A stretch of 38,502 nucleotides of DNA from Candidatus Omnitrophota bacterium. GTDB taxonomy: Bacteria; Omnitrophota; Omnitrophia; Omnitrophales; Aquincolibacteriaceae. A program made the translations under genes and the position numbers. This document shows, in pieces, positions 2,238-8,574 of the stretch (position 1 is the first letter of the stretch; every line of letters begins with the position of its first letter). The stretch is from contig JACPXL010000038.1 of the NCBI GenBank assembly GCA_016196555.1, positions 1 to 38,502 on the forward strand, written 5' to 3'. The notes under the pieces were generated by a model. That model saw only the letters and a list, made by a program, of their open reading frames with translations, was not told the DNA's origin and did no database searches.

Positions 2238-3141
2238 TTCACCGCTTGCGGTGGTCGGAACGGTTGCCATTGACGCCGTCAAAACTCCTTTTGGAGCGCG
2301 CGACCGTGTTTTTGGAGGATCGGCCTCTTATTTTTCCTATGCCGCCAGTTTTTTTACGCCGGTCAGTCTTATTGCGGTTGTGGGCCAGGATTTTCCGGAA
2401 GAGTATAGAAAAATTTTAAAAGAACATCCGATTGATCTCAGCCATTTAGAAGTGATTAATGGAAAAACTTTTTCCTGGAAAGGGGAATATGGAACAGACC
2501 TGAATACGGCCCATACTCTCGATACTCAACTCAACGTTTTGCTCGATTTTAAACCGAAGTTAATGTTTAAAACACTTCCCGAATATATTTTTTTAGCCAA
2601 TGTAGATCCTTTAATTCAGGCGGATGTGCTTGATCAATTAGAAAAACCCAAATTGAAATTTGTGGCTTGCGATACCATGAATTTTTGGATTGCCAATAAA
2701 CGCAAAGAAGTTTTGGAAGTGCTGGCTCGAGTGGACGCGGTGGTTTTAAATGACGGCGAAGCGCGCCAGCTTACAGGTGAGCCCAATCTCATTCGTGCAG
2801 GGCAGAAAATCAAAGAATTGGGGCCTGGATACGTCATTATTAAAAAAGGGGAGCATGGTGTTCTGCTTTTTTACGAGAGCCATTTTTGTGCATTGCCAGC
2901 TTATCCTTTGGAAGAAGTTTATGATCCTACCGGAGCGGGGGATACTTTTGCCGGCGGTTTAATGGGGCATTTGGCTTCAACCGGCGATTTGAGTTTTGAG
3001 AATATGAAAAAAGCGATTGCAACAGCCAGCATTCTCGCCTCCTTTACGGTGGAGGATTTTGGGCTTGAAGCACTGCGCCGTATTCAGCGTTCCGACATCG
3101 ATCAGCGCCTCGCCTTATTCCGTAAAATCAGCAGCTTTTAA
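2224..3141 (+). CDS. PfkB-family carbohydrate kinase
   Basis: PLAVVGTVAIDAV...FGGSASYFSYAA and C-terminal DPTGAGDTFAGGLMGHLA; start chosen at ATG 2224, overlapping thiE by 14 bp. Confidence 0.85.
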   Translation: MPELNSPLAVVGTVAIDAVKTPFGARDRVFGGSASYFSYAASFFTPVSLIAVVGQDFPEEYRKILKEHPIDLSHLEVINGKTFSWKGEYGTDLNTAHTLDTQLNVLLDFKPKLMFKTLPEYIFLANVDPLIQADVLDQLEKPKLKFVACDTMNFWIANKRKEVLEVLARVDAVVLNDGEARQLTGEPNLIRAGQKIKELGPGYVIIKKGEHGVLLFYESHFCALPAYPLEEVYDPTGAGDTFAGGLMGHLASTGDLSFENMKKAIATASILASFTVEDFGLEALRRIQRSDIDQRLALFRKISSF

Positions 3142-3148
3142 ACCTCTT

Positions 3149-3219
3149 GCGGGATTAGCATAGTGGTAATGCACGAGCTTCCCAAGCTTGTGAGACGGGT
3201 TCGATTCCCGTATCCCGCT
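3149..3219 (+). tRNA. tRNA-Gly (anticodon CCC)
   Basis: Acceptor GCGGGAT/ATCCCGC, anticodon arm CGAGC-TTCCCAA-GCTTG, T-arm ACGGG-TTCGATT-CCCGT. The encoded CCA is absent directly downstream (TTCGATC follows). Confidence 0.93.
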
Positions 3220-3313
3220 TCGATCTTATGATCGAATGCGGCGCCGTGCGGTTTTAAGGATAACCGTTGCGGCGTTCGATACGGGAATCGATTAGAACTT
3301 CCCGTATCCCGCT
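3201..3313. repeat. palindromic tRNA-derived module: inverted and direct copies of the tRNA-Gly T-arm/acceptor around two nested hairpins
   Basis: TCGATTCCCGTATC (3201-3214) is the reverse complement of 3278-3291; TTCGATC-TTAT-GATCGAA at 3219-3236; CGCCGTGCGGTT/AACCGTTGCGGCG stem at about 3242-3274; third, direct copy TTCCCGTATCCCGCT at 3299-3313 followed by CCA. Confidence 0.8.
3203..3228 (+). repeat. att-like direct repeat, copy 1 (overlaps tRNA-Gly 3' end)
   Basis: 26 bp perfect match to 8549-8574. Confidence 0.85.
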
Positions 3314-3440
3314 CCATTACTTCCGTTTGTGGAAATTAATTTATTGCGACGAGTGATGAAAAGTGATACTCTTTGCGGGTCGGTTTCCTCTTATTTCCGC
3401 CATGACACTTTCATAATTAGCATCTACGGGAGGCTATTGT

Positions 3441-5204
3441 ATGATCCCATCGAAAGAAAAGGAAAGCGTTGTCTTACGGATTGCCGGTGCCGCCGGGGAT
3501 GGTATTGCTTCCTCCGGCGAGGTCTTCGGCAAGATCTGCTCCCGCCTTGGTCTTCACGTCATGGCCTACAACGCCTATCAGTCGGCAATTCGCGGTGGCC
3601 ATGTCTGGCTCCAGCTTCATGTCGGTTCTGAGAAAACGTTAAGCCACGGGGAGGCGCCCGACGTCTTGGTTCTCTTGAATCGTACAAGTCCCGAAGTGCA
3701 CGTGCCGCAAGTGAAAAAAGGCAGCGTGGTTTTCTACAATACCTCCCAAATTCCTTCTGACTTCACAAAAATGCGCCAGGACGTTACCTTTTATGGCATC
3801 CCTTTTCGAGAATTAGTAACGGAGCCCGGCGTCGAAGCGGTGATGGCCAATACCATGCTCCTGGGAGGCGTCGTTGGAATCCTCGGACTCGATCCGAAAA
3901 TCGGCCTTGATTTTATTGCCGATCGTTTCCGAAAAAAAGGTGAACAGGTCATCGGTTTGAATCAGCGTGTCTTCCAAATCGGCATGGATTGGGTGAAGAA
4001 GAATGCAGCACCGCTTAATGTCTCGCTTCATGGCGACGGGAAAAAACGAATGTTTCTGACGGGTAATCACGCGTTCGGCATGGGGCTTCTGGCGGGCGGA
4101 CTCAAATTTTATGCGGGATATCCGATGTCCCCTTCGTCCGGTATTCTGCACTATGTGGCGGCGAAGGCCAAAGCTCATCAAATGATCGTCAAGCAAACGG
4201 AGGACGAGATCGCCGCCGTGAACTTTATTATCGGAGCCGCCCATGCGGGCGTGCGCACTGCGACGGCAACTTCGGGCGGCGGATTTTCACTGATGGTCGA
4301 AGGTGTCGGTCTGGCCGGAATGTTGGAAGAGCCAATTGTCATCATTAATGTTCAGCGCGGCGGGCCTTCCACGGGTATTCCGACCAAACAGGAACAGGGC
4401 GACTTGAATCTTCTGCTCGGTGCCGGGCAAGGAGATTTTCCTCGGATCATCCTTGCGCCTAAAGATACCGAAGACGCCTTTTATACCGCTTGGCGCGCCT
4501 TGAATCTTGCGGAAAAATACCAAACGCCGGTTCTTATCCTCTCCGACCTTTTCCTCTCCGAACATTTCCAAACAGTCGATCCCTTCCGATTTGATTTGCC
4601 GATTGAACGCGGTAAATTGCTTCGATCGGTTAAGGGCGAATACAAACGCTTTCTCATCACCGAAGATGGTATTTCTCCGCGGCTCCTGCCCGGAGCCACG
4701 CAGGGGATGTATTGCTCGGCAAGTGATGAACACGATGAGTCCGGCATTGTGATCAGCGACGTGTTGGCAGGACTTCCGAGTTCGCTCGAAATTCGAAATA
4801 AGATTCATGCAAAGAGGATGAGAAAATTGGACGTGATGCGAAATGAGGATATGCGTCTACCGACCCTCACGGGAGAACCGGAGGCGGAACTCACCCTGAT
4901 GGGTTGGGGTTCGACTTACGATGCGATTGAAGAGGCCTGCCAGTATTTTGCGCACGAGGGAATCGCGGTGAATCACCTCCATTTTACGGATATTTATCCC
5001 CTTCCCATCCAAGGGGTACTCGATATTCTGAATTCCTGTCATGAGATTATCGGTGTGGAGACAAATTATACGTCCCAGATGTGCCGCTTGATCCGTACCG
5101 AGACGGGCTATCATGTTAAAAAGACCGTGAACCGCTATGACGGCGAACCCTTCACCGGCGAAGATATTTATCGCCGGGTGAAAAAAGAGATCATGTATGT
5201 CTGA
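3441..5204 (+). CDS. 2-oxoacid:ferredoxin oxidoreductase, fused gamma-alpha subunit (KorA/PorA-like)
   Basis: N-terminal gamma domain (IAGAAGDGIASSGEVFGK...YNAYQSAIRGGH) fused to alpha domain (GYPMSPSSGILHYVA, QTEDEIAAVNFIIGAAHAGVRTATATSGGGFSLMVEGVGLAGM...NVQRGGPSTGIPTKQEQGDL). RBS GGGAGG upstream. Confidence 0.9.
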   Translation: MIPSKEKESVVLRIAGAAGDGIASSGEVFGKICSRLGLHVMAYNAYQSAIRGGHVWLQLHVGSEKTLSHGEAPDVLVLLNRTSPEVHVPQVKKGSVVFYNTSQIPSDFTKMRQDVTFYGIPFRELVTEPGVEAVMANTMLLGGVVGILGLDPKIGLDFIADRFRKKGEQVIGLNQRVFQIGMDWVKKNAAPLNVSLHGDGKKRMFLTGNHAFGMGLLAGGLKFYAGYPMSPSSGILHYVAAKAKAHQMIVKQTEDEIAAVNFIIGAAHAGVRTATATSGGGFSLMVEGVGLAGMLEEPIVIINVQRGGPSTGIPTKQEQGDLNLLLGAGQGDFPRIILAPKDTEDAFYTAWRALNLAEKYQTPVLILSDLFLSEHFQTVDPFRFDLPIERGKLLRSVKGEYKRFLITEDGISPRLLPGATQGMYCSASDEHDESGIVISDVLAGLPSSLEIRNKIHAKRMRKLDVMRNEDMRLPTLTGEPEAELTLMGWGSTYDAIEEACQYFAHEGIAVNHLHFTDIYPLPIQGVLDILNSCHEIIGVETNYTSQMCRLIRTETGYHVKKTVNRYDGEPFTGEDIYRRVKKEIMYV

Positions 5205-6057
5205 GGCGAAACAGTTCGACAGCGCCACCCATCCGGATTGGTGTCCTGGCTGCGGCGATTTCGGACTGCTTGCCGCACTTAAAAAAGCCTATGCGGGCCT
5301 GAATATTGACCCAAATCAAATGATGACCGTCTCAGGCATTGGTTGTTCCTCGAACCTTCCCGGCTTCATTAATACCTACGGCCTGCACACCTTGCACGGC
5401 CGCTCGCTTCCGATCGCACAAGGCGTTAAGCTTGCCAATCACCGAATGACGGTTGTCGCCGTCGGAGGAGACGGCGACGGTTACGGCATCGGTGTCGGCC
5501 ATCTGGTTCATGCGATGCGGCGCAATATTGACATCACCTATGTCGTGATGAACAACGCCATCTACGGACTCACGACCGGTCAAACATCCCCCACAAGCGG
5601 CCTTGGGATGAAAACCAAGTCCACTCCTTTTGGAAATCCGGAGCTGCCGATCAATCCGCTCACCTTGGCGCTCGGCAGCGGCTGCGGGTTTGTGGCGCGC
5701 GCGTATACAGGACATATTCCGCAGCTGGTCGAGATCCTCCAAAAAGCCGTTCAGCATCAGGGCTTTGCGCTCGTGGACACCTTTAGTCCTTGCGTCACGT
5801 TTAATACGATCAATACACACGAGTTCTACAAAAAAAATACGAAAGACATCAACAAGGCAGGGCATGATGTTTCCGATATCCACGCCGCGTTTCACGAAGC
5901 CATGCGCGAGGATTACATTGCGACCGGCATCTTCTATCAAAATGAACGTCCCTGTTACGAGGAAAGCGAGCGCGAAACACTTGCCAAGCCGCTCGTCGAT
6001 CACGAACTTGGCCTTTCGCTTGATCAGCACAACAAGCTTACTGCCGAGTTCGTCTAA
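5197..6057 (+). CDS. 2-oxoacid:ferredoxin oxidoreductase, beta subunit (TPP-binding)
   Basis: WCPGCGDFGLLAALKKA, GIGCSSNLPGF, HGRSLPIAQGVKLAN, VVAVGGDGDGYGIGVGHLVHAMRRNIDITYVVMNNAIYGLTTGQTSPT; overlaps the alpha subunit by 8 bp. Confidence 0.92.
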   Translation: MSEAKQFDSATHPDWCPGCGDFGLLAALKKAYAGLNIDPNQMMTVSGIGCSSNLPGFINTYGLHTLHGRSLPIAQGVKLANHRMTVVAVGGDGDGYGIGVGHLVHAMRRNIDITYVVMNNAIYGLTTGQTSPTSGLGMKTKSTPFGNPELPINPLTLALGSGCGFVARAYTGHIPQLVEILQKAVQHQGFALVDTFSPCVTFNTINTHEFYKKNTKDINKAGHDVSDIHAAFHEAMREDYIATGIFYQNERPCYEESERETLAKPLVDHELGLSLDQHNKLTAEFV

Positions 6058-6252
6058 TCCACAAAGATCGCCAGGCGTCCTGCAAATCAACAGTGTGGGC
6101 GGTTTCCGTTCGTAGGTTGTCCGCGATTTCAAGCGATTGGCATCTCAAAATGCCTCGCGTGACAGTCCCATAACGTCTAGCCATCGCCGTCAAAGATGAA
6201 ATCACCACGGAGGATTTGAAGAGAACAACACTCAAAGAGGAGGGAAGCCCAC

Positions 6253-6723
6253 ATGATTCCGCCGCGTCTTAAAAAATTCCTCCAGGATCAACAGACCGCT
6301 TATAAAGTCATCCCCCAAAGCCAGATTCCGGACATGCCGCAGGAGAAAGCTAAAGTGGTCATGGTCAAAGCAGCCGGCAAAGATGTCATGGTGGTTTTAC
6401 CTTCCACGGCGGTGCTCGATCCTTTTAAGCTTGGCATTCTTCTGGACATCGAATCCATCCGCTTGGATTCGGATGAAGAGGTCTACAAACTCTTTCCCGA
6501 CTGTGAACCCGATGCGCTTCCTGCGCTGGGTCTTCCTTACGACATTCCATGTTTTATCGACGAGACCTTGCTGGACGGGGAAGAGGTATTCTTCCCCGGT
6601 GGAAATCATGAGGATGCCATTTGCATCAATTCTGACGAGTACTGGCGCGTGGCGCAGGGTGAGGTCGGTGATTTCCGTCAGCGAGGCATTTCGAAGCATT
6701 CAACCTTCGAGAATAATATTTGA
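6253..6723 (+). CDS. YbaK/EbsC-type aminoacyl-tRNA deacylase domain protein
   Basis: MPQEKAKVVMVKAAGKDVMVVLPSTAVLDPFKLG...ALPALGLPYDIPCFIDETLLDGEEVFFPGGNHEDAICIN resembles the YbaK/ProX editing-domain core. Confidence 0.75.
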   Translation: MIPPRLKKFLQDQQTAYKVIPQSQIPDMPQEKAKVVMVKAAGKDVMVVLPSTAVLDPFKLGILLDIESIRLDSDEEVYKLFPDCEPDALPALGLPYDIPCFIDETLLDGEEVFFPGGNHEDAICINSDEYWRVAQGEVGDFRQRGISKHSTFENNI

Positions 6724-6967
6724 TCATGGCGCTTTGACGACAGGGCCTTACAAGGGCGGGTATTGGGAAGTGTTGAAGTGCTTTATCAAAGGTCATCACT
6801 CGCATTCCACAGAATCACGACGTACGGAAGCGCCACCATTAAAGTGGTTTAGAATTGATGTAGCAGAAAACACTGCAAAAATCTTATCGATGGGCGCTCC
6901 CCCCTAAAAATCCTACAGTTGCAAAATAGAATCTCCGGGTGTAAAACACCCCAAGCAGGAGGTTCAA

Positions 6968-7237
6968 ATGTCTGGCAAAAGACTCACCGAAGAGCAGATT
7001 ATTCCCATCTTAAAGAGGCACGAAGCAGGAACCTCGACACAGGATTTGTGCCGGGAAGTGGGCGTTAGTACGGCTACACTTTACAAATGGAAGGCCAAGT
7101 ATGGGGGCTTAGAGATTTCGGATGCCCGCCGTTTGAAAGGCCTGGAAGAAGAGAATCGAAAGCTAAAGAGGCTGGTGGCTGATCAAGCGCTGGAGGATAT
7201 CCAGGCGTATAAGGAAATTGCCCGGGGAAACTTCTAA
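6968..7237 (+). CDS. IS3-family transposase OrfA (HTH protein)
   Basis: LTEEQIIPILKRHEAGTSTQDLCREVGVSTATLYKWKAKYGG...LEEENRKLKRLVADQALE. Confidence 0.92.
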   Translation: MSGKRLTEEQIIPILKRHEAGTSTQDLCREVGVSTATLYKWKAKYGGLEISDARRLKGLEEENRKLKRLVADQALEDIQAYKEIARGNF

Positions 7238-7320
7238 AGCCCAAGAGGCGCCGCAAAGCGGCAGAGCATTTAGTCCGCGATCTTGGGCTTAAAAAAGCAA
7301 AGGCCTCTAAAGTCACGGGG

Positions 7321-8100
7321 ATGGCCAGAAGCGGACATTATTACCAGTTCAAACTGAGGCATGAGGAGTCTGGAATCGTAAACAGGATGAAAGCGTTGAT
7401 CGAGCAGCAAAACACGATTGGGTGCGAGATGATGCATGAGGTCTTGATGCGTGAGGAGTTGCTCAAGAACCACAAAAGGACGGAGCGGATTTACAAGGAA
7501 CAGGGCTTTTCCCTGAAGATCCGTAAGCGGAAGCGCAGGATATCCCAAGTTCGTTTGGAGTTACCCAAAGCAACGAGACCCAATCAGCGGTGGTCAATGG
7601 ATTTTATGCATTGTTCGCTGTGGTCAAGCAGGAAGTTTCGATTACTTTGTCTGATTGGTCAATTCACGAAAGAGTGTCCTGTCATCGAGGTGGATTATTC
7701 TCTGCCTGGATTACGGGTCACGAGAGCCTTGGAGTGGCTTTTGATTACGCGACAAAGACCAGAAGCAATTACGGTGGATAACGGGCCGGAGTTCGCAGGA
7801 AAAGCGCTTGATCAGTGGGCGTACAAAAACAAAGTGAAACTAGATTTCATTCGGCCTGGCAAGCCGGTGGAAAATACTTATGTCGAATCTTTCAATGGCA
7901 AAGTACGGTATGAGTGCTTGAATCAACATTATTTCACAAGCTTAGAAGAAGCAAAAAGAACGATTGAAGCGTGGCGGGTTCGATACAATGAGTTCAGGCC
8001 GCACAAGACCTTAGGCGGCCTCACGCCTCAATCTTTCGCAGCAAAATTTCAGGATCAAAACAACAAACACACCCTGGAAAATTCTACCTTTTCACTGTAG
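7321..8100 (+). CDS. IS3-family transposase OrfB (rve integrase core); probably made as OrfAB by -1 frameshift near 7225-7231
   Basis: DDE residues in WSMDFMH, TVDNGPEF and YVESFNGKVRYECLN; C-terminal YNEFRPHKTLGGLTPQSFA. The same frame is open upstream to the frameshift site. Confidence 0.92.
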   Translation: MARSGHYYQFKLRHEESGIVNRMKALIEQQNTIGCEMMHEVLMREELLKNHKRTERIYKEQGFSLKIRKRKRRISQVRLELPKATRPNQRWSMDFMHCSLWSSRKFRLLCLIGQFTKECPVIEVDYSLPGLRVTRALEWLLITRQRPEAITVDNGPEFAGKALDQWAYKNKVKLDFIRPGKPVENTYVESFNGKVRYECLNQHYFTSLEEAKRTIEAWRVRYNEFRPHKTLGGLTPQSFAAKFQDQNNKHTLENSTFSL

Positions 8101-8145
8101 GACAAATGGGGGGAGCGCCGATGCACACAATATTAAGAGGGGAAA

Positions 8146-8454
8146 ATAGGACAAAATAAGAAGCTGGAGCCGGTTCACCCCGGCGAAGTTCTGGATCAGG
8201 AATTTCTTGCACCATTGGAAATTAACCAGTACCGCTTAGCCAAGCGTATTCATGTGCCTGCGCGCAGAATCAATGAAATTGTGCAGGGGAAACGGGCTGT
8301 TTCCGCCGATACGGCGTTAAGATTGAGCAAATATTTTGGAACTTCCGCCAAATTCTGGCTGAATCTTCAAGCGCAGTATGATCTTGATATCCAGGAAGAA
8401 AAAATAATCTCTAAGCTCGAATCGGCTATTAAACCATTCAAACATGCGGCTTAA
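8146..8454 (+). CDS. higA: HigA-type antitoxin / XRE-family regulator; start codon unclear, possibly defective
   Basis: KKLEPVHPGEVLDQEFLAPLEINQYRLAKRIHVPARRINEIVQGKRAVSADTALRLSKYFGTSAKFWLNLQAQYDL is typical HigA. No ATG/GTG/TTG lies between the in-frame stop at 8134 and the conserved N-terminus. Confidence 0.75.
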   Translation: MGQNKKLEPVHPGEVLDQEFLAPLEINQYRLAKRIHVPARRINEIVQGKRAVSADTALRLSKYFGTSAKFWLNLQAQYDLDIQEEKIISKLESAIKPFKHAA

Positions 8455-8548
8455 TTATGCGGGAATTTAAGTGGCAAAATAAGCGGCAGAAATTCTCTGA
8501 ACGCGCGTAACTTATTATTTCTATTAAGATTATAAAAAATCTACTCAA

Positions 8549-8574
8549 GATTCCCGTATCCCGCTTCGATCTTA
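8549..8574 (+). repeat. att-like direct repeat, copy 2 (truncated tRNA-Gly 3' end)
   Basis: Identical to 3203-3228; no tRNA 5' part precedes it. Confidence 0.85.

Follow-up and report, generated by a model that had tools for sequence, protein, structure and literature searches.

In E. coli, the tRNA-linked repeats (TLRs), which include the tyrT repeats, lie in tRNA or rRNA operons, and 18–19 bp at their 3′ end exactly repeat the terminal 3′ sequence of the RNA gene located just upstream (PMC8144298). They occur with 22 genes at ten loci, with one to five repeats per locus. They have been known since 1978 and their function is unsettled, with the exception of the rRNA-operon members studied in that work (PMC8144298). 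REP sequences (RAYT/Y1) are short extragenic palindromes, sometimes paired or in tandem, that are probably mobile (PMC3733652).

The window, which is the whole stretch of 38,502 nucleotides analysed from a Candidatus Omnitrophota genome, contains a palindromic module directly behind a tRNA-Gly(CCC) gene. A sequence-only reading had proposed three roles for it: a folded single-strand recombination site, a minimal tRNA-targeting element, or an RNA switch on tRNA-Gly maturation. The module is one member of an apparently undescribed family of DNA repeats made of two hairpins, hp1 and hp2. The literature search, with subscription papers mostly outside its reach, returned no published description of this Omnitrophota family.

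By their features, the E. coli TLRs are the closest known system. The Omnitrophota repeats are likewise found in a tRNA operon, with one to several repeats per locus and a closing copy of the tRNA end. A copy of the 3′ end of the upstream tRNA is present in the window (3299–3313) and in 22 of the 46 units that lie directly behind tRNAs. Unlike TLRs, the Omnitrophota units have one covarying two-hairpin core common to different tRNAs, start at the discriminator base, and also occur reversed or away from tRNAs. Only tRNAs reached the Rfam threshold in the window; RtT gave no match at its gathering score, nor at E ≤ 5 in 3100–3400. The resemblance to REP sequences lies in features of mobility and in extragenic palindromes arranged as pairs or tandems. 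REP sequences are palindromes of 20–40 bp, whereas the Omnitrophota unit is a double hairpin of ~62 bp, is tRNA-specific and is not found beside RAYT genes. In place of the REP tag GTAG/CGTC, it carries GTAC, CTAC, CGAC, TGAC or ATGC, depending on the tRNA.

With tRNA-integrated islands, the family shares the direct repeat of the tRNA 3′ end, the intact upstream tRNA and tandem accretion. Unlike these islands, its elements measure about 60–250 bp and contain no integrase gene. Recognition seems to be structural, unlike that of island att sites, because the sequences of the hp1 arms differ at each tRNA. In integron attC sites and at the ends of IS200-IS605 elements, folded single strands with extrahelical bases serve as recombination substrates. 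The likeness of the units to these is a resemblance only, read from sequence, and their consensus has no apparent integron-type end boxes.

The module behind tRNA-Gly(CCC)

The features of the locus are listed in Table 1. As the sequence-only reading had described, the segment TCGATTCCCGTATC (3201–3214) is inverted without mismatch at 3278–3291, and TTCCCGTATCCCGCT is repeated directly further downstream. The hairpin hp1 and the bulged stem of hp2 (about 3241–3275) were both found as well. The latter is matched by model R1 with 43.2 bits (3236–3278). The 3′ end of tRNA-Gly(CCC) has no encoded CCA because hp1 starts at the discriminator base T3219; CCA is absent behind the proximal copy of the tRNA end and present behind the distal one.

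Table 1 Features of the tRNA-Gly(CCC) locus, with positions in the window
Feature	Position	Strand	Basis
tRNA-Gly(CCC)	3149..3219	+	ARAGORN; Rfam RF00005, 66.7 bits
Proximal copy, T-stem/acceptor 3′ strand of tRNA-Gly, TTCCCGTATCCCGCT	3205..3219	+	
hp1, hairpin TTCGATC-TTAT-GATCGAA, left arm from the tRNA discriminator base	3219..3236	+	Direct reading; 124-unit placement rule
Linker TGCGG and hp2 (13-bp-class hairpin, bulged T, TTAAGGAT loop)	3237..3278	+	Covariance model
Inverted T-arm copy GATACGGGAATCGA, able to pair with 3201–3214	3278..3291	+	
Distal copy TTCCCGTATCCCGCTCCA, CCA-bearing tRNA 3′ end	3299..3316	+	Alignment with empty sites of relatives
5.3-kb segment between second and third tRNA-end copies	3317..8548	+	GC, Pfam, synteny
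Third copy: tRNA 3′ end, hp1 left arm and part of the hp1 loop	8549..8574	+	26 bp = 3203–3228

The stability of the fold exceeded that of shuffled controls, both as RNA and as single-stranded DNA of either strand. RNA folding gave z = −8.1 for 3149–3320 and z = −5.5 for 3217–3313, and folding of the two DNA strands gave z = −6.2 and −7.5. None of the shuffles was equally good in any of these cases.

Several relatives have no module at tRNA-Gly(CCC). Their site reads CCCGCTCCA, in which the acceptor leads straight into an encoded CCA. In the window, as in two relatives (G003 and G007), CCCGCT precedes the module, and a CCA-bearing acceptor end is located further downstream. This arrangement looks like an insertion with a duplication of ~15 nt. 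The distal copy would then probably be the original end of the tRNA gene, which the module has shifted by 94 bp.

A covarying repeat family

When 200 nt downstream of the tRNA genes in the window's own genome were inspected, many of these genes proved to be followed by the two-hairpin unit, and a covariance model of hp2 was built from 12 copies. hp2 is the core of the repeat family. In the alignment of the model, 12 of the 13 pairs changed on both sides and 96.8% of the cells were paired. Neither the observed share of paired cells nor the covariation score was reached by any shuffle; in slid controls, pairing was 32–55%. The non-Watson-Crick cells in the hairpins comprised G-T and A-C in a ratio of 49 to 27, an asymmetry too weak to tell RNA from DNA, and the G-U share of the pairs in tRNA (~3.6%) lies close to that in the hairpins.

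At E ≤ 5, the model found 9 matches in the own genome (1.69 Mb), all nine just 3′ of tRNA genes and on the same strand. Besides Gly(CCC), the unit lies behind seven other tRNA genes, namely Arg(TCT), Lys(CTT), Lys(TTT), Ser(CGA), Met, Leu(TAA) and Gln(TTG); tRNA-Met has two tandem units. A truncated unit is present at Arg(TCG). The minimal unit of ~62 bp consists of hp1, a linker AC, hp2 and the end NNGC. Within one genome, hp2 similarity between units of different tRNAs is only about 62%, which gives no indication of a recent burst. The retention of structure by old copies suggests a local function. When the copies were clustered, neither the genome nor the tRNA gave a clear grouping signal. 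In the same genome, tRNA-Pro CGG and TGG (L041 and L045) are followed by long AT-rich perfect hairpins that start from the tRNA end, for example TAATTTTTGG..CCAAAAATTAT, without hp2.

The units found in relatives extend the family beyond this genome. At E ≤ 0.01, the model had matches in 29 of 58 genomes, the own genome included. With a threshold of E ≤ 1e-4, 28 of 386 genomes sampled over the phylum were matched, and all 28 belong to the order of the window. A scan of GTDB species genomes with an exact pattern, which is strict and would therefore miss diverged copies elsewhere, yielded 15 stretches. Thirteen were confirmed by the model, all from Candidatus Omnitrophota MAGs, and 11 of these 13 contain a tRNA on the stretch. 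The remaining two (Planococcaceae and Fibrobacter) are chance occurrences, in which the model finds nothing. Within the genomes searched, the family is confined to one Omnitrophota order.

Placement at tRNA ends and arrays

The placement rule was derived from 124 distinct units. A tRNA is located within 500 nt on the 5′ side of 82 of them (within 30 nt for 47, and up to 500 nt for a further 35), proportions that represent a biased census because some loci were picked as array-like, the nine out of nine of the own genome being unbiased. Up to 38 of the 124 units have no recognisable tRNA just upstream, partly as a result of contig ends and tRNA fragments, and units are also found in intergenic positions with no tRNA found beside them.

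The arms of hp1 are 8 bp long in 79 of the 124 units, and the loop is usually 4–5 nt. The left arm starts right after a C, usually in the context GC/A (the slash marks the junction). For tRNA genes, this junction coincides with, or directly adjoins, the step from acceptor position 72 to discriminator 73. An AC follows the right arm, the outer bases of which are complementary to the end of the particular tRNA. The corresponding sequences are GCAC..GTAC at Leu, Lys and Arg, CAG..CTAC at Gln, and CCG..CGAC or CCA..TGAC at Ser and Met.

Reversed units occur at the 5′ ends of tRNA-Arg genes, in three different genes with different anticodons (in G018, G011 and G016). They sit behind GGGCGC/A, which is complementary to the 5′ acceptor strand and has the sequence of the 3′ strand. 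The reversed units of L080 and L131 have an inverted copy of the local flank behind them, as observed at some tRNA 3′ ends.

Occupancy differs between syntenic loci. At the tRNA-Gln/ABC-permease locus, one unit is present in G018 and G016, two tandem units in G006, and none in G011 and G020; G025, G023 and G019 have other hairpin-bearing sequences. The hp1 arms of G016 and G018, read directly, differ at two pairs (TTC/GAA vs CAC/GTG), and hp2 shows several differences with pairing mostly retained. This pattern may result either from in-place selection on the structure or from replacement by diverged units.

Larger arrays have a period of about 130–250 nt and contain, in order, the tRNA 3′ part, hp1, hp2, the inverted T-arm and one or two more hairpins, before another copy of the tRNA end. 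The 22 direct tRNA-end copies found downstream (p ≤ 0.005) compare with ~0.2 expected by chance, and a significant inverted copy of the flank was found in 11 of the 46 direct units, against the same expectation. The tRNA-end copy that closes the arrays is 15–20 nt long; behind Met, Gln and Ser, the 62-bp tandem units have no tRNA copy. The downstream copies at L196 (Val) and L043 (Arg) also take in the sequence of the hp1 left arm. Copies within one array are near identical; those from different loci are not. Contigs of relatives often stop inside or just behind arrays (L101, L107, L109 and L013), which suggests that longer arrays were collapsed in assembly.

Other structured segments were observed in this context. 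Behind tRNA-Leu(TAG) of the own genome (L006, 1636–1712), an 18-nt tRNA-end copy follows the hairpins GAGAACCGTCAAGGTTCTC and CCCCGCGCATAGGCGCGGGG, without hp1-hp2. Both hairpin types recur in the arrays L097, L098, L102, L105 and L106. A second recurrent segment, GGGAGC, a hairpin and GCGGGTGGCCGACC ... GGCGCC, is found in L013, L084, L101, L104, L108, L109, L110 and L204. It separates the inverted T-arm from the tRNA-end copy that follows, and in L204 (G025) lies directly behind tRNA-Gln.

Probable mobility and alternative explanations

With a probability of roughly 0.6, the module is a copy of an order-specific, tRNA-targeting and non-autonomous mobile repeat family, the folded form of which is recognised and selected. 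Among the three suggestions of the sequence-only reading, the minimal tRNA-targeting element is the best supported, through the many tRNA genes concerned, the fixed target position, the empty sites and the reversed copies at tRNA-Arg 5′ ends; the covariation, the duplication of tRNA ends and the differing syntenic occupancy are further observations on its side. None of the three outcomes that the sequence-only reading had named as refuting was observed: the module does occur elsewhere, its stems covary, and the fold is more stable than shuffled controls. The minimal unit would enter right after the last acceptor base (GC/A, between positions 72 and 73), with the target recognised through the acceptor-strand sequence. 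Insertion would duplicate the tRNA 3′ end, and therefore a working tRNA would remain upstream and the original CCA-bearing end would shift downstream. Repeated or unequal events would lead to tandem arrays. The form recognised and selected would be the fold, in which hp1 extends the acceptor helix and hp2 carries the bulged T. Against this explanation are the divergence of hp2 between the tRNAs of one genome, the units for which no tRNA is recognisable just upstream, and the finding that no transposase or recombinase tracks the units.

Movement of the mobile repeat would be enzymatic, presumably on a single-stranded substrate and by a putative enzyme acting in trans. The idea of a folded single-strand recombination site is compatible with the strong covariation, the conserved bulged T and the duplication breakpoints in hp1; the enzyme was not found. 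Mobilisation by RAYT/Y1 was considered and rejected, as the presence of units is uncorrelated with Y1 transposases, and no model match at E ≤ 1 was obtained in 30 Y1 loci. No tyrosine recombinase tracks the presence of units either; the unit-rich genomes G019 and G015 have just two tyrosine-recombinase matches each, as expected of XerC/XerD. At L183, a C-terminal tyrosine-recombinase fragment (G000:C13:2658-2876) lies ~1 kb upstream of a tRNA-Cys/tRNA-Leu pair, with a unit on tRNA-Leu.

A function at the RNA level is unlikely, yet has several observations in its favour. In such a case, hp1 and hp2 would form a structured 3′ trailer of tRNA transcripts, with hp1 stacking on the acceptor stem and pairing the discriminator; the trailer would control 3′ maturation or free a small RNA, in a TLR-like manner. 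The same-strand position of the units behind tRNAs, the strong covariation, the structure retained at syntenic tRNA-Gln loci despite sequence change, and the location within a Lys-Leu-Gly tRNA cluster are all consistent with it. Against it, the occupied tRNAs vary by species, and intergenic copies lie away from tRNAs. The reversed copies at tRNA-Arg 5′ ends are outside the tRNA transcript. Two specific functions were also rejected. A CsrA sponge, an idea drawn from the GGA-like loops, has no partner in the own genome and nearly all family carriers, where PF02599 is absent; an intrinsic terminator (GC-rich hairpin and T run) has no site in 3050–3450. The proposed RNA switch on tRNA-Gly maturation is weakened by the same reversed copies, by the lack of specificity of the unit for tRNA-Gly, and by the small share of direct units with a significant inverted T-arm copy (11 of 46).

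It is also doubtful, on current evidence, that the element represents a novel type of single-strand mobile repeat with target choice through base pairing, in which hp1 would provide, in its right arm, a guide complementary to the last bases of the tRNA gene. A few changes of guide bases would then readdress variants of one element to other tRNA acceptor ends.

The 5.3-kb segment raises the question of an integrase scar, in which the units would be att remnants of islands at tRNA 3′ ends, with hp1 as core site and the short modules as deletion derivatives. The segment contains, according to Pfam, 2-oxoacid:acceptor oxidoreductase alpha/beta genes, a tRNA-editing-domain gene and an IS3-family element, and its GC reaches 0.54 vs 0.42–0.48 in the flanks. 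As the order PfkB - tRNA-Gly - NUDIX is conserved in several relatives, which lack the segment at this locus, it is an additional insertion. A 26-bp direct repeat including the tRNA 3′ end borders it on both sides (3203–3228 and 8549–8574) and ends within the hp1 loop; the insertion therefore arose after or through hp1. This repeat, bordering an insertion of different GC, and the hp1 left arm within the downstream copies of L196 and L043 speak for a scar. An origin of the whole family by this route is nonetheless improbable, since hp1 differs at every tRNA and one recombinase would not read that by sequence. Pfam found no integrase domain in the five main ORFs of the segment (the 79-aa ORF at 8215–8454 was left out). 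Twenty stretches behind other occupied tRNAs, each no longer than 20 kb, contained no long island, and all the other tRNA-end copies in them are within about 500 bases; hp2 is conserved where the island is absent. Local slippage during replication, duplicating tRNA ends in tandem at hairpins without mobility, would account for array copies that are near identical within a locus and dissimilar between loci, but it is highly improbable as it cannot create one hp2 consensus shared by numerous unrelated tRNA loci and by the reversed units at tRNA-Arg.

The arrangement of the Omnitrophota family is related to that of TLRs; its core is defined and covaries strongly, the point of insertion at the acceptor end is exact, and naturally empty sites exist, which opens the origin of such repeats to testing. 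Should the complementary bases of hp1 and tRNA ends reflect guided targeting, very small elements would have a new means of reaching conserved RNA genes.
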